DNA of 64,000 nt, taken from Gammaproteobacteria bacterium. Its GTDB lineage: Bacteria; Pseudomonadota; Gammaproteobacteria; Nitrosococcales; Methylophagaceae. Location: contig JARGFJ010000004.1 in NCBI GenBank assembly GCA_029210875.1, positions 35,745 to 99,744 of the forward strand. Reading direction: 5' to 3'. The notes under the pieces are model-generated. The model was not told the origin of the DNA. It worked only from the letters and a program-made list of their open reading frames with translations, and made no database searches. Below, piece after piece: positions 3,526-63,924 of the stretch. A program made the position numbers and the translations under genes. Every line of letters begins with the position of its first letter. Within the stretch, counting starts at the first letter, position 1.

Positions 3526-5769
3526 TCAAGAATCGTAACCAAGAATACTTTTCTTCAATACACTATCGATATCTTGCCCAAAGTTTCCTAAACCTTTCAG
3601 TTCAATTTGGAAATAAATGGCTAAATTCCGATCTTCATCCGATGCATCATTAATGAAATTTCTTACGACAAGACGAGTAGCCCAACAGCAACTTTCATAC
3701 TGAACACCGGCCAAACCTTCCATTGTCCGATTGTCTTTAAGTGAACGATACCAGCGTCCAACAATGCTCCATTGTTGATTAAATGGGATCTGTGTAGATA
3801 GATCAAGCTGTTCTAAACTGGCGGCTGTACGGTGTGGGTCGGCTAAATTTTGACGTCGGTAACGATGGGCAGCATTAAAGACTAAGCCAGTGTTATTTCT
3901 ATAGCGTAATTCAAGTGCTGACATATTGGATCGGGTATCACGCGTGTCCCATTGTATCTCACCACGAGCAGTCCATTCATCAGCAATTGAAGCAACCACT
4001 TCAGCAACCATATCCGAATCTGATCTGGTATCAAAAGGCGTGTTATTAAAGGATACTTCTCGGTCCTCAAAGTATTGAATTTGTCCCAAACTGACACGAA
4101 GATTTTCTTTGCCTGTTTGAGCATCAATAATACGTGATGTTAACGCAAGTGTTAGTTGATTTGCATCACCGACACGATCTGATCCTGAAAACCGATCATG
4201 GCTAAACATTTGCCCCATGCTAAAGGTGTTTAAACTGGTATCAAAAACGGGAATATCAGACTGATTTCGCTCTGGAATATAAAGATAAAATGCGCGGGGT
4301 TCCAAGGTATGAATATAGCCATCGCCAGCAAAAGTCATATCCCGTTCAAAGAATAAACCACTATCTACACTCACAACAGGTAAGGTTCGAGCAGGCGACG
4401 TATCGCCTCCAATAGTAACACTACGGTCTAAATCATATCGTGTGTGGTGCAAGGCAATACGAGGAGTGATAAATGCTGCTGCTGTTGCCAAAGGCAGACT
4501 TATTGATGGTTCAATATCAACGCGTTGACCGGTAACTTTATCAGTGTGATCAAAATCAACGTATTCGGCCTTCATAGCATAGGTTAATCCCATGGCTTGA
4601 TCAGGCAAATATCCATTTAATAGCAATTGAGGTAGGCGCTGATAAGGTGCATTAACATTGGTCAATGTTTGAAAACCTTGAACTCGACCTGTGAAATCCC
4701 AATTGGTGCCGTTATAACCGACATCGAGCTCACGGTTAAGATGCGTTGTACTCGCCAAACTTAAACTAGGACTAAAATCTTCTAAATAGGCATCATCAGA
4801 TACATAGTTATAGTCAATATTTGTCGACCAGCGAGACATGAATTTGTTTGAATGTTTTAAAGTGAAATGTTTCCGGTCTTCCTCAAAATAAGGATTAATA
4901 TCATCACCATCATTTTTCAGGTTATCACTGCCTAAATAACCCGCATCAATAACACCGCTGCCATTTTCATATAAATATCTGAATTCACCATTGAGCATTA
5001 AGCCACGTTCAGACATATAGCGAGGTGTTACTGTAGCATCATAATTCGGTGAAATATTCCAATAATAGGGTGTTTGAAGATCAAACCCCGTTTCATCACT
5101 GTTACCAACAGTCGGTGCCAGGAAACCCGATTTTCGTTCATCATTCAAAGGGAAACTGATATAGGGTGTATAGGCAACGGGAAACCCACCTAATCTGACA
5201 ACGACATTACGTGCTGAACCAACGCCTGCTTCATGATCCAAGTTGACAGATGTTGACTGCAATAGCCATGAATCATCACCTTCTGAACAGGTCGTATAGG
5301 TGGCATTTTTAAGATTTGTACGTACTATACCTTCGCGGTGTACATGACTTGCTGTGCCTCGAGCATGATTCTCACGTAGTTTGAAACCAGCATCAATCAG
5401 ATTACCACTATCGTTGGTTAACGACCATTCAGCCTCTTGCCCATCAATGATCATGTCACTATCACGCAGTCTGACATCACCTTGTGCTGTGATATCTCCT
5501 GAAATCTGATTATAGGTAGCTCGGTTTGATTTTAGTTCTTGTCCACCACGCGAGACAATGACGTTACCGGTAAAAACGGACGTACCATCATCGACTAATT
5601 GCGCATTATCAGCTTTAACATCGGTTGCAGTTTGTTCTGGATTAGCAACATAAGGTAAATAACCATTATCAGAAGCTGGATGACATAACTGCCATTCACT
5701 TGAATCAGCCATAGCCAAAGGACTAAAACATGATAATGTTGCCGCAGAATAAACTATCAATTTGCGCAT
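3526..5769 (-). CDS. lptD: LPS-assembly protein LptD
   Basis: ORF 3526..5862; MRKLIVYSAATLSCFSPLAMA signal peptide suggests start near 5769; OstA and beta-barrel domains; upstream of surA. Confidence 0.93.
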   Translation of the reverse strand: MRKLIVYSAATLSCFSPLAMADSSEWQLCHPASDNGYLPYVANPEQTATDVKADNAQLVDDGTSVFTGNVIVSRGGQELKSNRATYNQISGDITAQGDVRLRDSDMIIDGQEAEWSLTNDSGNLIDAGFKLRENHARGTASHVHREGIVRTNLKNATYTTCSEGDDSWLLQSTSVNLDHEAGVGSARNVVVRLGGFPVAYTPYISFPLNDERKSGFLAPTVGNSDETGFDLQTPYYWNISPNYDATVTPRYMSERGLMLNGEFRYLYENGSGVIDAGYLGSDNLKNDGDDINPYFEEDRKHFTLKHSNKFMSRWSTNIDYNYVSDDAYLEDFSPSLSLASTTHLNRELDVGYNGTNWDFTGRVQGFQTLTNVNAPYQRLPQLLLNGYLPDQAMGLTYAMKAEYVDFDHTDKVTGQRVDIEPSISLPLATAAAFITPRIALHHTRYDLDRSVTIGGDTSPARTLPVVSVDSGLFFERDMTFAGDGYIHTLEPRAFYLYIPERNQSDIPVFDTSLNTFSMGQMFSHDRFSGSDRVGDANQLTLALTSRIIDAQTGKENLRVSLGQIQYFEDREVSFNNTPFDTRSDSDMVAEVVASIADEWTARGEIQWDTRDTRSNMSALELRYRNNTGLVFNAAHRYRRQNLADPHRTAASLEQLDLSTQIPFNQQWSIVGRWYRSLKDNRTMEGLAGVQYESCCWATRLVVRNFINDASDEDRNLAIYFQIELKGLGNFGQDIDSVLKKSILGYDS

Positions 5770-54576: not shown

Positions 54577-55068
54577 TTATTCATGGATAAACACACGTGT
54601 TCCGGCTTTCACCTTGTCAAACAACGCAAGTAAATCCTGATTATGCATACGAATACACCCATGAGACAACGGAACGCCCATAAGCAATGAATCCGGACAA
54701 CCATGGATATAAATATAACGTTGCATTGTATCAACATTTGCCAAACGATTTTTGCCCAATTCCAAACCGCTTAACCACAAAATCCGCGTCAAGATCCAAT
54801 CTCGCTCAGGAAACTGTTGTCCTAAGGCATCATTATAAATCTCACCGGTCGGACGACGACCAACAAATACCGTATTTATCGGCTGACCAGCACCGATACA
54901 GGCACGAATTACATGATGTCCACGCGGTGTACAACCACTATTCTTGCGTTCTCCAGCACCATTTAAAGCAGTTGATACTGGCGATTCAAACACAGACACA
55001 CCATCAATCAATAGCTGACAACGTTGTTTAGAAATAGAGATATCAAGCACTATGGCTTTCATTAACAT
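54577..55068 (-). CDS. L,D-transpeptidase (YkuD family)
   Basis: IHGCPDSLLMGVPLSHGCIRMHNQD catalytic motif. Confidence 0.92.
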   Translation of the reverse strand: MLMKAIVLDISISKQRCQLLIDGVSVFESPVSTALNGAGERKNSGCTPRGHHVIRACIGAGQPINTVFVGRRPTGEIYNDALGQQFPERDWILTRILWLSGLELGKNRLANVDTMQRYIYIHGCPDSLLMGVPLSHGCIRMHNQDLLALFDKVKAGTRVFIHE

Positions 55069-56075
55069 AACCCCAGCTTTTCTAACGGACTCACCACCGC
55101 CTGTAAATTTTGCTGCAACACATGAGTATAAATTTCAGTCGTCTTCACATCAGCATGGCCTAACAACTTTTGCACCACCCGGATATTGGTGCCCGCCTCT
55201 AATAAATGAGTGGCAAACGAATGTCTAAACGTATGCGATGTCACTCGTTTATCAATACCTATTTTGTTCTTAGCTGAACGAATTGATTTTTGTATCACTG
55301 ATTCATTTAAATGGTGACGACGGACAATCCCTGTTTTTGGATCAGTTGATAAGGTTTTGGAAGGAAACACATATTGCCAGCCCCATGCCACCCCCGCATT
55401 AGGGTATTTTTTATCCAAGGCATTGGGTAAATACACACCTGCTATATTATCGATGCGGTCTTGTTCGAACAATGCCTTCGTTTCCAACAAATGAGCCTCT
55501 AACTCAGCCACAACTGATTTACCGAGTAAGGTTGTTCTATCCTTTCCACCTTTACCATCACGCACAATTAAATAACCATTAGCAAAATCAATATCTTGCA
55601 CGCGCAATCGAAGTACTTCCATCACCCTCAAGCCACCGCCATACATCAACTTGGCCATCAAACCTGCCACACCTGACATAGACGCTAATAATTGGCTGAC
55701 TTCTGACTGACTCAAGACAACAGGCAATCGAACGGCCTTCTTAGAACGGATCGGCTCTAAATCATCAGCCATAGGTAAATCCAATACCTGCTTATAAAGA
55801 AACACAATCGCATTCAAGGCAAGACTTTGCGTTGAAGCCGCATAATTCTTATTCACCGCCATATCAGACAAAAAACCTTCGATTTCTGATCGGCCTAACT
55901 CTTTAGGATGCCGTTTACCGTTAAAACGAATAAACGCCAAGATCCACTTTATATAAGACTGTTCGGTGCGTATTGAATAATGATGATAACGAAGCACCTC
56001 CCGAACCTGATCCATCAAGCGAACGGATTGAGGTTTAAATTTTAATTTTTCGGATGACGTGTTTTGATAGGCCAC
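55062..56075 (-). CDS. intI: Chromosomal integron integrase (IntI-type tyrosine recombinase), GTG start
   Basis: GGGLRVMEVLRLR box I, HTFRHSFATHLLEAGTNIRVVQKLLGHADVKTTEIYTHV box II, IntI-specific insertion YLPNALDKKYPNAGVAWGWQYVFPS. Confidence 0.95.
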   Translation of the reverse strand: MAYQNTSSEKLKFKPQSVRLMDQVREVLRYHHYSIRTEQSYIKWILAFIRFNGKRHPKELGRSEIEGFLSDMAVNKNYAASTQSLALNAIVFLYKQVLDLPMADDLEPIRSKKAVRLPVVLSQSEVSQLLASMSGVAGLMAKLMYGGGLRVMEVLRLRVQDIDFANGYLIVRDGKGGKDRTTLLGKSVVAELEAHLLETKALFEQDRIDNIAGVYLPNALDKKYPNAGVAWGWQYVFPSKTLSTDPKTGIVRRHHLNESVIQKSIRSAKNKIGIDKRVTSHTFRHSFATHLLEAGTNIRVVQKLLGHADVKTTEIYTHVLQQNLQAVVSPLEKLGLC

Positions 56076-56099
56076 AAATAATTCCCGCTTTAAGCTTGA

Positions 56100-56180
56100 T
56101 TATTCAATTACAGGGAATTATAGTCCGTATAAGTATAAAAATTACAGGGAATTTTTTTCCCGTTAATAACAATGTTATGC
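56100..56180 (+). other. Putative attI recombination site
   Basis: Intergenic region upstream of intI; TAACAAT-GTTATGC core-site pair at about 56167..56180; two direct repeats ATTACAGGGAATT at 56107 and 56141. Confidence 0.6.
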
Positions 56181-56657
56181 CTTATAGATCGTGCGTCCAT
56201 GCTCTATTACAAACTTTAGTGGTATTTTCGGATTGTTAATGTCCTTGCCACCATCAGCGTGCCATTTCTCTATCCACTTTGAGTAATAGGGTTCTAAATT
56301 GTTCGGTGTTAGCTGATGGATGGAAAGCAGTCTTATCCCTTCATAAACTGCAAAAATCCAGTCAACTTGTCGATATTTTTCTATAATCACCGGGTTCATA
56401 TGGTGGTGAGTGGAAAAGCTTCTTGTAAGCAGCGTATTTACTGACTTCAATTCATATTCATTTCCATTGGCATCCTTTGCATCGTTACCTTCTCTGCCTG
56501 GTAAGACTTCCAGCCCGGTTATAAGCAAAACTTGCAGTATTTTTCCGCCATTGTCTTGAAAAATATCATTGATGCCATGCTTTTCAGCTAGCTCTTGCAA
56601 TTTTAAAACGTGGGGATAAATTGCTTGGAATAACTTCAAATCTTGATGACTACTCAT
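56175..56657 (-). CDS. PvuII-like type II restriction endonuclease (expected CAGCTG)
   Basis: [49 protein letters not shown]...[28 protein letters not shown]...[24 protein letters not shown]; closely matches R.PvuII as remembered. Confidence 0.93.
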
Positions 56658-56880
56658 TTCTTAGCAAGTCCTTAATGTCTATGGCTAAGGCGCTTGCTAG
56701 GCGTTCCATGTTATCGATTGATATATTCCTTTCGCCACGCTCCACGGAACCAACATAGGTTCTGTGGAGCCCGGCAAGATCAGCAAGCTCTTCTTGAGAA
56801 AGATTGGCTTTTGATCGAATCTCCTTGAGATTTCGAGCAAAAATCTTTCTGACGTTATGTGTGGTGTTCTTAGTCTGCAT
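56650..56880 (-). CDS. R-M controller (C) protein, HTH_3/XRE family
   Basis: [52 protein letters not shown]; 5' of and overlapping the endonuclease gene. Confidence 0.93.
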
Positions 56881-56902
56881 CGCGTTATAATCCTGTCATG
56901 AT

Positions 56903-56927
56903 GACTTTGCGTCTACAGACTATAAGT
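56903..56927 (-). promoter_or_regulatory. Candidate C-box operator of the R-M controller
   Basis: Minus strand ACTTATAGTC-TGT-AGACGCAAAGTC, two dyads between C gene and methyltransferase. Confidence 0.6.
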
Positions 56928-56954
56928 AGCACCTTAAAGAAGAGAACCTTTTGA

Positions 56955-57980
56955 ATGAAATGCTTACCTACCCTTAAAAACTCGCCTGCCTATACAACTG
57001 ACTGGGGGAGTGCGTATTGTGGTGACTCACTTGAATTGCTTGCGCAATTTCCTGATGACAGCATCAATTTAGTAATGACAAGCCCTCCTTTCGCGCTGCT
57101 TCGAAAAAAAGACTATGGAAATAAGGATCAGCACGAATACATTGAGTGGCTTTCTGAATTTGCGAAACTAGTGTTGAAAAAATTAACACCTGATGGGAGC
57201 TTTGTCCTTGATTTGGGTGGCGCTTATCAAAAAGGAGTGCCCGCCAGAAGTCTTTATAATTTCCGAGTTCCAATCCATTTTTGCGACGATCTTGGCTTTT
57301 TCCTTGCTGAAGACTTTTATTGGTTTAATCCGTCAAAGTTGCCAAGCCCAATTGAGTGGGTAAATAAGCGAAAAATGCGCGCCAAGGACTCTGTCAACAC
57401 TGTTTGGTGGTTTAGTAAAACTGAGTTTCCAAAAGCAGATGTAACAAATGTTCTCACTGAATACAGTGATCGCATGAAAAAGCTTTTGGAAGATCCTGAT
57501 AAATTCTACGACCCGAAAAAAAGACCCTCTGGCCATGATATAGGAAAGGGTTTCGGTAAAAACAACAGTGGAGCTATTCCTTCAAATCTCCTTCAAATAC
57601 CAAATTCCGAATCAAATGGCGGATATATGGCTGGGTGCAAAGAGATTGGTATTAAAAGCCATCCTGCTAGATTTCCAGCAAAGCTTCCAGAGTTTTTCAT
57701 AAAATTTTTGACTGAACCTGAAGATATAGTCGTAGATATTTTTGGAGGTTCTAACACAACAGGGTTTGTGGCAGAAGCGGAACGAAGAAATTGGTATTCT
57801 TTTGATATGGAGCCAGAGTATGTTGCGGCTTCGGCATTCAGATTCCTTGAAAAGGGAGTTGAGGCGTCAACACTTAGAGAGATTTATGAATCTATTAAGA
57901 GTGGGAAGAGTGTTGATATTAAAGAATACAAAAAGCAGCTTAGTATGTTTAGAGAGCCGACTGCCGAGTACAAAGCATAA
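56955..57980 (+). CDS. PvuII-like DNA (cytosine-N4) methyltransferase
   Basis: NLVMTSPPFALLRKKDYGN, GSFVLDLGGAYQKGVPARS, EDFYWFNPSKLPSPIEWVNKRK, HPARFPAKLPEFFIKFLTEPEDIVVDIFGGSNTTGFVAE; closely matches M.PvuII as remembered. Confidence 0.95.
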   Translation: MKCLPTLKNSPAYTTDWGSAYCGDSLELLAQFPDDSINLVMTSPPFALLRKKDYGNKDQHEYIEWLSEFAKLVLKKLTPDGSFVLDLGGAYQKGVPARSLYNFRVPIHFCDDLGFFLAEDFYWFNPSKLPSPIEWVNKRKMRAKDSVNTVWWFSKTEFPKADVTNVLTEYSDRMKKLLEDPDKFYDPKKRPSGHDIGKGFGKNNSGAIPSNLLQIPNSESNGGYMAGCKEIGIKSHPARFPAKLPEFFIKFLTEPEDIVVDIFGGSNTTGFVAEAERRNWYSFDMEPEYVAASAFRFLEKGVEASTLREIYESIKSGKSVDIKEYKKQLSMFREPTAEYKA

Positions 57981-58079
57981 CAAGTGCCAGCAAGCGGACT
58001 TGGGTAAACTGTCACCGTTTTTGCAAAAAGCCGCAAAAACGCCGCCAATTCACCCAAGCCGTTGTGGCAGGCGTTATCT
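57975..58079 (+). other. attC site 1 (end of R-M cassette)
   Basis: TAACAAGTGCC...GCGGaCTTGGGT...ACCCAAGCCG..GTGGCAGGC-GTTATC; imperfect dyad with an unpaired A on one arm; inner stem CCGTTTTTGC/GCAAAAACG. Confidence 0.85.
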
Positions 58080-58086
58080 TCAATAG

Positions 58087-58959
58087 GTGCCAATCGGAGT
58101 ACATATGGCAAACACAGGCAAGGAGTATGAGCTTTTTGTGGCAAATCTACAGCAAGCTCTTTTAAATGCTGAGACTATTACGACGCAGAAGAATATCCAA
58201 GTTGAAGTCGATAAAAAGATTACGGACAATTGTGGCATAGAACGACAGTTCGACATATATTGGGAGTACGAGTTAGGCGGAATAACGTATAAAACTGTTA
58301 TTGAGTGCAAAGACTACAACTCAAATGTATCTGTAGAAAAAATAGATGCACTCATTGGGAAAATGCGTGACATTCCAGATTTAAAAGCTGTTTTTGCCAC
58401 AAGGAAAGGCTACCAGTCTGGCGCAAAAACAAAAGCAGAACAGAATAAAATCGATCTTCTTATCGTGCGAGAGCAGAATGACACTGATTGGACGGATGAA
58501 GATGGCACTCCGCTTATCAAGAAAATCTTCATTGACATGCATTTGTGCATGCCTGCACACATTCACAAATTCGAGCCTGTAATTGATGGTGAGTGGGTAA
58601 AAGAAAATACCGCCATCGACACAACCAAACCAATCAGCCTATCAGGGCTGAACAACGAAATATTTATTGAAAATACCGATGCAGGTGAAACTACCTCACT
58701 CCATGAATTGGCAAGCAGGTTGGCGCCTCTAGAAGGAAAAGAGTACGGAGTGTTCGAAAAAACCGAAAAGTTTGATAATGCTTTTATCTACCATAAAGAT
58801 TTAAAGCTGAAGCTTGCTGGATATAAAATTGAATATTCAATTTCAAAACCAATAAATGAGCCTATTGAAATTGATTTTTCAAAGGAGCTTGTTGGTGTTG
58901 TTGAATATTTACAAAAAGGCACAAAAAAGTCGATATTTAGAGATGGACTCATTAAGTAA
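58087..58959 (+). CDS. Standalone PD-(D/E)XK restriction-endonuclease-like protein (Mrr_cat-like), integron cassette gene
   Basis: ERQFDIYWEYELGGITYKTVIECKDYNSNVSVEKIDALIGKMRDIPDLKAVFATRKGYQSGA; start probably MANTGKEYELFVANLQ (ATG about 58105). Confidence 0.8.
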   Translation: MPIGVHMANTGKEYELFVANLQQALLNAETITTQKNIQVEVDKKITDNCGIERQFDIYWEYELGGITYKTVIECKDYNSNVSVEKIDALIGKMRDIPDLKAVFATRKGYQSGAKTKAEQNKIDLLIVREQNDTDWTDEDGTPLIKKIFIDMHLCMPAHIHKFEPVIDGEWVKENTAIDTTKPISLSGLNNEIFIENTDAGETTSLHELASRLAPLEGKEYGVFEKTEKFDNAFIYHKDLKLKLAGYKIEYSISKPINEPIEIDFSKELVGVVEYLQKGTKKSIFRDGLIK

Positions 58960-58964
58960 AGCGA

Positions 58965-59024
58965 AGATAACAACGCCATCAAATCCGACGCTCGTACCTC
59001 GCGCGGTTTATGGCAACGTTAAGC
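58965..59024 (+). other. attC site 2 (short)
   Basis: TAACAACGCCATCAAATCCG...CGCGGTTTATGGCAAC-GTTAAGC; imperfect dyad and GTTRRRY core. Confidence 0.8.
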
Positions 59025-59082
59025 GTAAAAAACAAGTTCCAAAATAATATGTGCGGACACTCAGCCAAAAGGCGTTTTTGAA

Positions 59083-60249
59083 ATGACAGGCGAAGAAAAT
59101 ACTGAAGAAATCACAAAGCTACGTGAGATTAGATGGAAGACCCATCTATCGCAGAGAGTTCAGGATTTTGCCAAAGTCATAAGCGATGATGATGTCTTTG
59201 AAAAGTATTTTGGTCAGCCTTACGTAGAGAAACTAACCTCAAAATCCAAAGATATAACGAAGCTGGTGTTTAAACTTGGCGTCATTTATACGGCGCTAAT
59301 GCTGTCTTTGTTTGCCTCTCACAATGTAAGCGAGTCGGAATTTGAGGTTTTTGGCTATGGATTTAAAAATCTTGGCTCTTACAAAGAGCTGCTTCTATTT
59401 CTCGCAGTGAGCATTTCTCCAATTAGTGCTATCCTCCTCGCATACCAAAAATATATCAATGCATTAGTAACAGAGTGTCTCAAGAAGTTGGCGCCAGATG
59501 AAAGCACAAGAAAGTTCTATTCGTTTACATTCACTGATGACTATTTTGATGGACTGATAAGCAGAAACTCAGGGGCTTCAACATATTGGCATGGATCAGT
59601 CAAGTTACTTACTGTTGTGTTTGGGTTCACGTTATTATTCCTTCTAATAACGTTGATCGCAGGCTCATTCTTTATTCAAATCAGTGTGATTTATGACGTC
59701 GCAACAAAGCCCTCGCTTTCACAATATGTCAATTTATTTGTATTAGTCTATGCAATCACATCCATTTTGTTTTCATGGCTCATCAGCATATTGCAATTTC
59801 CAATGCCAGAAGTCGATTTAAGAAACTACTCCAGGCTGTCCGAACTTGAAAATAATGACCCGGATAAATACAAAGAGCTAATGCGAAAGTTTTCAGCTGA
59901 AAGTTCAAAAAAAGAAGCCATTTCAACAATAATCACGTCATTTGTAATATATATGTCGATTTTCACCGCTATCGTATTCTATTGGCACCCAAGTTCGCTT
60001 GATGATTTAACCTTTATTCTTGGTAAAGGTATGTCTGGTGCCTTTATAGTTCTCTTTTTCTCCAACGAGCTAATGGGCTTTATTCGTAAGCGTGTGTTGG
60101 CATGGTTCTTTAGAAACTATTCGGAAGGTGTTCCTAATAGACTGGTAATGTTTGGTAAGGTTCAGAAGTTCCTTTTATTCATCAGAATGATTGTTCCGGC
60201 TGTTATGTCTATTGGGTACGCTTTCTATGCATTGCGAGCAATTAACTAG
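59083..60249 (+). CDS. Uncharacterised multi-TM membrane protein, integron cassette gene
   Basis: Several hydrophobic segments (LGVIYTALMLSLFA, LLLFLAVSISPISAILLAY, LLTVVFGFTLLFLLITLIAGSFF, LFVLVYAITSILFSWLI, IITSFVIYMSIFTAIVFYW); no family recognised. Confidence 0.8.
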   Translation: MTGEENTEEITKLREIRWKTHLSQRVQDFAKVISDDDVFEKYFGQPYVEKLTSKSKDITKLVFKLGVIYTALMLSLFASHNVSESEFEVFGYGFKNLGSYKELLLFLAVSISPISAILLAYQKYINALVTECLKKLAPDESTRKFYSFTFTDDYFDGLISRNSGASTYWHGSVKLLTVVFGFTLLFLLITLIAGSFFIQISVIYDVATKPSLSQYVNLFVLVYAITSILFSWLISILQFPMPEVDLRNYSRLSELENNDPDKYKELMRKFSAESSKKEAISTIITSFVIYMSIFTAIVFYWHPSSLDDLTFILGKGMSGAFIVLFFSNELMGFIRKRVLAWFFRNYSEGVPNRLVMFGKVQKFLLFIRMIVPAVMSIGYAFYALRAIN

Positions 60250-60255
60250 TGTCGC

Positions 60256-60336
60256 GCTTAACAATGCCGTCAACTCGGACGCTTTTTTCGTTCGCTGCGC
60301 TCACTACAAATACGCCGGTTACAGCTGGCGTTAGAG
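60256..60336 (+). other. attC site 3
   Basis: GCTTAAC (RYYYAAC)-AATGCCGTCAACTCGGACGC...CGCCGGTTACAGCTGGC-GTTAGAG; VCR-like dyad. Confidence 0.87.
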
Positions 60337-60357
60337 TCGTAGCTGACCAAGCCCATA

Positions 60358-60697
60358 AGGAGTCGTTTTCGATAAATTTCCACCAGAAGTAGTTGATAAG
60401 CTAAAGAACTATGTGTACCGACTTATCGATCCGCGCAATGGCGAGACATTCTATGTTGGCCGAGGTATTGGAAATCGTCTGTACTCCCATATTCGTGACG
60501 AACTGAGGAATGAATCCGACGATGTTGGCGACAAACTGAGAAGGATTAGAGAAATACGCCTCGCTGGTTTTGATGTTGCACATGTTGTGCATCGGCACGA
60601 CCACTACAGTCGCCTTTATACCCTTTATAGCTGTAGACATATGGCATCCTCAAAGACTAGTATGCTTAGTTGTAGTCGGAATAAATACCCTTAACAA
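60358..60697 (+). pseudogene. LEM-3-like GIY-YIG domain gene remnant (start codon missing, C-terminus diverged)
   Basis: DKFPPEVVDKLKNYVYRLIDPRNGETFYVGRGIGNRLYSHIRDEL...LRRIREIRLAGFDVAHVVHRHD; no ATG/GTG/TTG before the domain after TAA at 60355-60357; unrelated tail. Confidence 0.7.
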
Positions 60698-61776: not shown

Positions 61777-61906
61777 AAGACAATGACCACGGATATAACA
61801 CTCAATCTATACAGAATCTTGATACCGTGTATTTGAAACTTAACGCCTTCTTGATAAATGCTGCTGTATCATATTCTTTAAATGCCCGTTGGCCAAAGGA
61901 AAATCG

Positions 61907-63199
61907 ATGCCCCCTGCTTCAGTAGTTGTTTGTATCGGTAGTTCAGCAAAGACTCAGAAACTGATCGCTGCAGGTGCTGAATACGCACTTGACAGTGGTG
62001 TGCCACTCAAGATTTTGCATGTCAGCCATTCGACTCAAAACACTGATGATGCCGATGCGCTTATCAATAAAAATCTGGCGATTGCAAACTTGCTTGATGC
62101 GGAACGTATCAAAATAGTCGATAGTGATGTCACCCATGGCATTCTAAACTATTTACAATCACATCCTGTATCGGCTGTTTTTATTGGTCGTTCATCAGCA
62201 CGCAAATGGCGACCTTGGGGCTTAAACGACATCTCATCTCAGGTAAAAATGCAGACCAATCAAGTTGATGTCAATATTGTTGACATAACGTCTGTTGATG
62301 CTGTACAGAACGGCTTAGATCGTGTCATTGAATATAGCATTTGTATCGCTGCAGTATTAGTACTGACTGGTTTTCTTCACTTGATCCAGCATTTTATTGC
62401 AGAGGCCGATATCATGATGGCCTATCTAGGTGTTGTAGTCGTAATAGCTTACTATTTAGATCGTGGTCCAACGTTATTTGCCTCGATTGCCAGTGTCGCA
62501 GCATTTGATTTTTTCTTTGTCCCCCCTTTTTACACCTTCGCTGTAGATCACGAAAAATACCTGATTTCATTTGCCGTTATGGCAGTAGTTGGTATTTTAT
62601 TTAGCTCATTCAGTGAACGTAGCAAACAACAACTGCGCGAAGCGTCGGCCAGAGAAGAACAGCTTAGAAACTTATACCACTTAGCTCGCTCTCTGGCAGC
62701 TGCATCAACCAATCAGGAAATCGTACGGCTGGCCTGTTTTCATATTTCAGCGATACGTGATCTGGAAGTCGGATTTTTTCAACTCAAAGACGATGAAATC
62801 AACCTTATTGAACAAGGTTCTATTGTTAATCCTACTGCAATGTCATTTGCCAAATCGAAATCCTGCATTGACCTGCAACAGGAGGTCTCTGATCTGACTA
62901 ATCAGGAAATATGGAAATATTACCCTATTGAACCGAATTGTGGACTTGGGGTGGTCATACATTCAGATCGCGCATTGACCAACAAGCAACGCCATCTTTT
63001 GCAGACATATCTTTCCTTGATCAAGCTCGCCATCACACGATCGCAGCTTTCAGAGCAAGCAACAAAAGCACAGCTTCACGCTGAGAGTGAGCAACTGCGC
63101 AATGCTATTTTAAGTGCCGTTTCTCATGATCTCAGAACACCACTGGGCACTATCATGGGCATGACCAGTACCTTACTTGATCAAGATGCCAGACTCTGA
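61907..63199 (+). pseudogene. KdpD-like sensor histidine kinase (USP, DUF4118 TM, GAF-like, HisKA), truncated after the H-box
   Basis: USP-like N-term, 4-TM DUF4118, AVSHDLRTPLGTIMGMTSTLLDQDARL then stop at the transposase-fragment boundary; ATPase domain absent. Confidence 0.85.
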
Positions 63200-63924
63200 C
63201 CGATCCCCACGAAATTTGAGATAGCTAAACATTAAGCGGCTCCTGCATTAACAATTGTATTTTTTGACAAGCGGCATTCCAATCTTGTTTTTTTAATCGT
63301 AAACGTCGGTCTCGAAATGCTCTCAAACCAATATATTGATACGATAAAACAGTCCCAGTCTTGAGTGAGTTAGCTTGGTAGCTAAGATGACGTTGAGTTA
63401 GTTTAATCGCCATTCCCAACAAAAATAAAACGTATTGAGCCAACATCGCTATCAGTAATAAGACAGATAGATAATTTAACGTTCGTGTTTTGCTTTCATT
63501 AAAGTTAAGCCCTGTTTTTAAGTCTCGAAAACTTTCTTCTATTTGCATCCGTGTTCGATATATTTTAACTATCTTTTTAGCCTCTCTTACTGTTTTACTT
63601 GGTAACGAAGTGGCTAATAACCAAGGCTCTTGTTCACGGCTGGCATTAGAGCGTGAGTTGGAACTCGCACGTGAACGCTCGCCTGTGGCGGTGAGCTTTT
63701 TACGGCCTTTGCTGTTTTGTTTATAGACAACAAGATGTGTAGCAAAACTGTTTTTGCGTCTCATAATATAACGGCCAAGGGATTTTTCTTTTGTGGTGGC
63801 TTTTTGATACAGTTCACGGGTTAAAAACCACTCCTCATCAGGATGTTGCTTACACATCGTTTTGTTTCTAACTCTTCCAACATAATCCCAACCCAAGGAT
63901 TCAATGAGTTTAAACCATGGTACG
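63195..63924 (-). mobile_element. IS4-family transposase fragment (C-terminal half), interrupted at its 5' side
   Basis: YRTRMQIEESFRDLK matches Y-(2)-R-(3)-E-(6)-K; reading frame extends upstream as VPWFKLIESLGWDYVGRVRN until about 63921 then stops. Confidence 0.85.

Follow-up and report, generated by a model that had tools for sequence, protein, structure and literature searches.

Three genes of a restriction-modification (R-M) system, coding for an endonuclease (R), a controller protein (C) and a DNA methyltransferase (M), lie next to the integrase gene of a short integron in the 64-kb stretch of DNA analysed here, hereafter the window. Their positions and those of the surrounding integron features are compiled in Table 1.

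Table 1. Features of the integron and its R-M cassette in the window (L115 and L117 are two genomes of the same genus)
Feature	Position	Strand	Basis
intI, integron integrase, 337 aa, GTG start	55062-56075	minus	TIGR02249, IntI4 2a3v
attI region, ending at core G 56174	56076-56174	plus	comparison with L115 and L117
Candidate Pc promoter TTGATT-17-TATAGT, directed into the array	56096-56124	plus	promoter scan, L115/L117
Gene cassette 1, R-C-M and own attC, 1,899 bp	56175-58073	plus	complementary cores, attC folding
R, PvuII-family restriction endonuclease, 160 aa	56175-56657	minus	PF09225, R.PvuII alignment
C, controller (HTH_3) protein, 76 aa	56650-56880	minus	HTH_3, PADLOC Control_protein
C-box operator region, between C and M	56898-56931		pPvu1 comparison
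M, N4-cytosine DNA methyltransferase, 341 aa	56955-57980	plus	PF01555, 1boo, MTase_II
attC1, R'' GCATAAC, R' GTTATCT	57975-58079	plus (recombinogenic bottom strand)	folding
Cassette 2, Mrr_cat-like nuclease ORF (58087/58105-58959), attC2 (58965-59024)	58074-59018	plus	PF04471 8.1e-8
Cassette 3, ORF of 388 aa (59083-60249), attC3 (60256-60336)	59019-60330	plus	cores
Remnant cassette 4, truncated GIY-YIG protein (N-terminal part of PD-T4-3)	60331-60694	plus	PADLOC

The original prediction of a complete PvuII-like R, C and M set is borne out by each of the three proteins. The sole Pfam match of R is Endonuc-PvuII (E 6.6e-63), and its closest relatives in the PDB are the R.PvuII structures 3ksk/1ni0. 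A loss of catalytic residues would have counted against a PvuII identity, but all of them are kept. In the alignment with R.PvuII (68% identity), residues D35, D59, E69, K71 and H84-H86 are invariant, which correspond to D34, D58, E68, K70 and H83-H85 of PvuII. Both the D/E-x-K catalytic residues and the HHH loop are present. C matches HTH_3 in Pfam (7.6e-16) and Control_protein in PADLOC (5.3e-29), with C.BclI as its top PDB match. M is assigned to N6_N4_Mtase by Pfam (6.2e-41) and to MTase_II by PADLOC (1.7e-176); its best solved match is M.PvuII (E 2.8e-161, residues 9-323), and it carries the motifs SPPF at 43-46 and FGGSNTTG at 263. The divergent layout, with C and R on one strand and M on the other, was found as predicted. 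C lies upstream of R and overlaps it by 8 nt. The three reading frames, the catalytic residues and the operator are all intact.

The closest well-studied counterpart is the PvuII R-M system of plasmid pPvu1 from Proteus vulgaris (NC_002632), which has the same R-C-M order, divergent layout and C-R overlap, and shares its operator sequence and catalytic residues with the window. The DNA identity is 67% over 82% of the 1,991-base query. In the operator region, 31 of 34 positions are identical to pPvu1 1269-1302, and this block is retained in other PvuII-family relatives. The two systems differ in their setting. pPvu1 is a small multicopy plasmid in which no attC was detected, whereas the unit of the window is a cassette at a chromosomal-type attI. 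R of the window is longer than that of pPvu1 by two residues (KA), whose codons lie, together with the stop codon, in or beside the cassette core.

The integrase scores 440 bits against TIGR02249, compared with a cut-off of 265, and aligns nearly end to end with its closest PDB match, IntI4 (E 1.1e-92, residues 22-334). The R..H-R..H..Y residues are visible in this alignment, and there are no internal stops. The gene is in cis to the cassettes and reads away from the array. The integrases of L115 and L117 are 82% and 74% identical to it, and both genomes hold other first cassettes. For this reason conservation ends at the core: the last 120 bp before it are identical at 104 of 121 positions in L115 and at 86 of 122 in L117, and past the core G/TT identity falls to about 32%, the random level. 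The attI border, previously only putative, is thus supported by comparison with two related integrons. The candidate Pc promoter matches the consensus at 9 of 12 positions and is the sole sigma-70-like site in 56060-58090. As shuffled sequences contain more such sites (mean 4.4), the promoter scan is weak on its own; the hexamers and their spacing, read from the sequence, are identically placed in L115 and L117. A short inverted repeat GGGAA..TTCCC (56147-56161) lies just inside attI and has a counterpart at the corresponding position of L115 and of L117. Its inner letters vary among the three genomes while its ends remain complementary, and on the minus strand it scores terminator-like for R transcripts. 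An Rfam search of the array returned a sub-threshold match only.

Complementarity of core and inverse core is a requirement for the excision of one circle. Cassette 1 starts at G/TTATGC (between 56174 and 56175), and the inverse core GCATAAC (57975-57981) complements this start. The R stop codon makes up the first three bases of the cassette, and the M stop codon falls within its inverse core. The bottom strand of attC1 folds with −32.4 kcal/mol (z −6.3 to −6.7), and none of 200 shuffles was as good. The site is 74-76% identical to attC-like sites in two same-genus genomes (G017/G018) and 78% identical to one attC-like site on a Shewanella plasmid. The folded attC1 and the attI border seen in two genomes agree with the earlier claim that the R-M module sits exactly between an attI core and an attC. 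Of the extent assigned to it, 56175-58079, the start holds and the end has to be moved: the cassette stops at 58073, the G of GTTATCT, and 58074-58079 belong to cassette 2. An attC-like site on a Shewanella plasmid (L128, 1095-3083) lies near a group II intron reverse transcriptase. Group II introns of this kind are known to target attC sites.

The same module was found elsewhere with the same borders. A DNA search of plasmids yielded a match on a Saccharobesus litoralis plasmid that has 78.5% nucleotide identity and starts and stops at the cassette borders. It is followed by a well-folded attC (z −6.0) and by a second cassette with its own attC. The attC of this copy differs from attC1 and is of an Alteromonadales type, with 81-94% identity to sites from Pseudoalteromonas replicons. 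Loci with a PvuII-like R numbered 80 in a genome scan. In a tree built on M plus R, the window falls into a clade of six (SH-aLRT 99), together with Saccharobesus, Methylovulum, a member of the Thiotrichaceae, a Bathymodiolus symbiont and a 'Chloroflexi' MAG. All six members have a G followed by TTATGC (CTATGC in one) at the R stop, and their flanks are unrelated. As this G lies outside the R gene, G/TTATGC at the R stop points to a shared cassette core. Among 192 related genomes, 24 of them of the same genus, the R family was found only in the window's own genome and in two others of the same class; such rarity fits a recent gain. In two close relatives (L006 and L007, R stop at 3998 when oriented), the G/TTATGC core is kept and no attC is seen downstream. 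Both could be fossil cassettes, or the R-M genes may have inserted outside an integron.

A distant clade (support 98) contains a Leptolyngbyaceae locus (L032, 1387-5940) in which the PvuII-like R-M cassette stands between two folded attC sites of an integron-type array with four attC sites in all. Related cyanobacterial loci have weaker attC sites. Core and inverse core are complementary over at least 8 bases in 6 of 75 relatives compared with about 1% in crossed controls, a modest excess. As short core matches are common by chance, only loci with a folded attC were counted as firm cassettes, namely the window, Saccharobesus and the Leptolyngbyaceae locus. Few further loci were confirmed when the 3′ side was scanned more strictly for attC. 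Three loci (L018, L039 and L048) have weaker or partly decayed attC sites, of which that of L018 folds no better than shuffles, and two (L015 and L058) have matching cores alone. An integron integrase over the cut-off is encoded in 12 of the 27 genomes with PvuII-like loci, as a raw count. Viral contigs hold more distant relatives only, and matches in phage records are at 40-42%. Judged by these sequences, members of at least two bacterial phyla carry PvuII-family relatives as cassettes. As cassette members are found both in the clade of the window and in the distant cyanobacterial clade, at least two separate recruitments of the family into integrons are likely.

The window and Saccharobesus share an R-C-M body of 78.5% nucleotide identity, which exactly at the inverse core passes into a genus-type attC in the window's genome and into an attC of Alteromonadales type (as much as 94% identical to Pseudoalteromonas sites) in Saccharobesus. 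One tentative reading, to which we give slightly less than even weight, is that the PvuII family moves between integrons and swaps its attC on the way, and that the separate cyanobacterial clade was recruited independently. If this exchange is real, the PvuII family offers a natural marker for tracing how an attC comes to be attached to a cassette, and entire self-enforcing R-M units recur as integron cargo in different phyla.

Taken together, the protein families, catalytic residues, operator, attI and attC borders and the occurrence of the cassette elsewhere, all of which can be read directly, make it highly probable that a complete type II R-M system of the PvuII kind makes up cassette 1 of this short chromosomal integron and that it was inserted, and moves, as a cassette. 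What we infer beyond this concerns its specificity, its regulation, the effect of Pc, defence and addiction. By homology to PvuII, M would add N4-methylcytosine at CAGCTG and R would cleave unmethylated CAGCTG in incoming DNA, thereby restricting phages. In the PvuII circuit, C is an autogenous activator and repressor, and promoters exist for C/R and for M (PMC3695507). Accordingly built, C of the window would bind the operator between C and M, first delay and then boost R, and limit itself. On entry of the cassette into a naive cell, the delay set by C would give M a head start. The unit would be put into attI by IntI via its own attC and would travel between genomes in this form. With promoters of its own, it should be functional at any place in an array and have no need of Pc. 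If the cassette stands first, transcripts from Pc would run sense through M and antisense through C and R, to the advantage of M; other R-M systems are known in which R is under antisense control (PMC3695507). If the cassette were excised, M would be lost, R would stay active as methylation became diluted, and the daughter cell should be killed, as with type II R-M systems on plasmids. The cassette may therefore punish its own loss and may hold the array in place. An unprotected R would be harmful, since the window contains 16 CAGCTG sites compared with 20.7 expected. The site is not clearly avoided within the window, so long-term activity of R is not visible in its composition. The locus is known from one assembly.

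It is very improbable that the R-M genes landed otherwise between intI and an unrelated attC. Boundaries in one genome can coincide by chance, and several plasmids besides pPvu1 carry a PvuII R-M system with no attC detected. Against this, core and inverse core of cassette 1 are complementary and have the stops of R and M within them, and Saccharobesus has the same module and borders with another attC. Since that module is flush at the cores and four further relatives have G/TTATGC or GCTATGC at the R stop, the arrangement is not a chance juxtaposition. Genuine cassette genes might still be silent or decaying passengers, with R unexpressed and neither defence nor addiction in play. The end of the array is decayed and cassette 4 truncated, the genome holds a second, broken IntI, and the annotation of the Saccharobesus copy is fragmented and includes frameshifts, all of which would suit such a fate. 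It sits badly, however, with a window in which the three reading frames, the catalytic residues and the operator are all intact, and we regard it as rather unlikely.

A more serious competitor, although still a minority view in our estimate, is that addiction rather than defence is the function that matters. The cassette would then resemble the toxin-antitoxin cassettes of large integrons and would owe its retention to the lethality of its excision. Toxin-antitoxin and type II R-M systems are grouped together as post-segregational killers, and CAGCTG sites are present in the window. In Vibrio cholerae, toxin-antitoxin cassettes with their own promoters penalise cassette excision (PMC11023631). 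The array is nevertheless short and partly decayed and does not have the appearance of a stabilised one, and its defence neighbours, the Mrr-like nuclease and the PD-T4-3 fragment, suggest selection for defence. An addiction role is plausible for the R-M cassette. Like the unit of the window, the toxin-antitoxin cassettes of Vibrio chromosomal integrons contain several genes with their own promoter and should punish excision (PMC11023631). Unlike in these, the part of the toxin would be played in the window by a DNA nuclease with sequence specificity and that of the antitoxin by an epigenetic mark, and the excision penalty is a prediction.

R-M genes and other anti-phage genes on integron attC cassettes have been reported or cited before (PMC9892861, PMC12444791), and R-M cassettes are therefore an established kind. 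The original prediction had called a self-regulated three-gene cassette unusual. This is fair, even though R-M systems in cassettes were known already. The unit of the window shares carriage by attC with the published defence cassettes and differs in that a single cassette holds an entire divergent type II system under the control of C. Orthologue families of R.PvuII, including C-R fusions, have been described from many phyla and comprise the R family studied here; integrons are not mentioned there (PMC3850674). In the searchable literature, which mostly excludes subscription papers, we found no report of a PvuII system in an integron. One of the best-studied R-M systems, together with its timing circuit, fits into one mobile cassette and is so used in more than one bacterial group. 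An immune module that is complete and potentially self-enforcing can thus travel in integrons as a single unit. Whether an R-M cassette protects against phages and, in the manner of toxin-antitoxin cassettes, penalises its own excision can thereby be put to a clean test. Of greater interest are that such cassettes recur across phyla and that close relatives differ in their attC. The pair of related modules with unlike attC sites is relevant to the question of how genes turn into cassettes.

The array looks rich in defence genes, because cassette 2 encodes an Mrr_cat protein and cassette 4 a truncated PD-T4-3. The core of cassette 2, TTATCT, is complementary to AGATAAC, and that of cassette 3, TTAAGC, to GCTTAAC. 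In attC3, the R and L boxes pair, and the overall energy is not above that of shuffles. The protein of cassette 3 has no match in Pfam, NCBIfam or PADLOC; by eye, it shows long hydrophobic stretches. The cassette 4 protein (60413-60694) matches PD-T4-3 in PADLOC with 9.8e-29 over 64 of 256 positions. No matching inverse core and no clear closing attC were seen for this cassette.

The Mrr-cat nuclease of cassette 2 directly adjoins the cassette of the N4-cytosine methyltransferase, so that a methyl-directed nuclease and m4C marks may be in conflict or in partnership. In E. coli, McrBC attacks M.PvuII methylation (PMC2614495). A decayed second integron with an attC-like site close by is present in the same genome (G000, C10, 23795-24427; L119, 5739-6434). 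Its integrase is 78-89% identical to intI of the window and broken by an internal deletion and a change of frame. Beyond the array, a sensor-kinase-like ORF (61889-63896, KdpD-like by eye) ends early, immediately ahead of a transposase-like ORF located where the contig ends.
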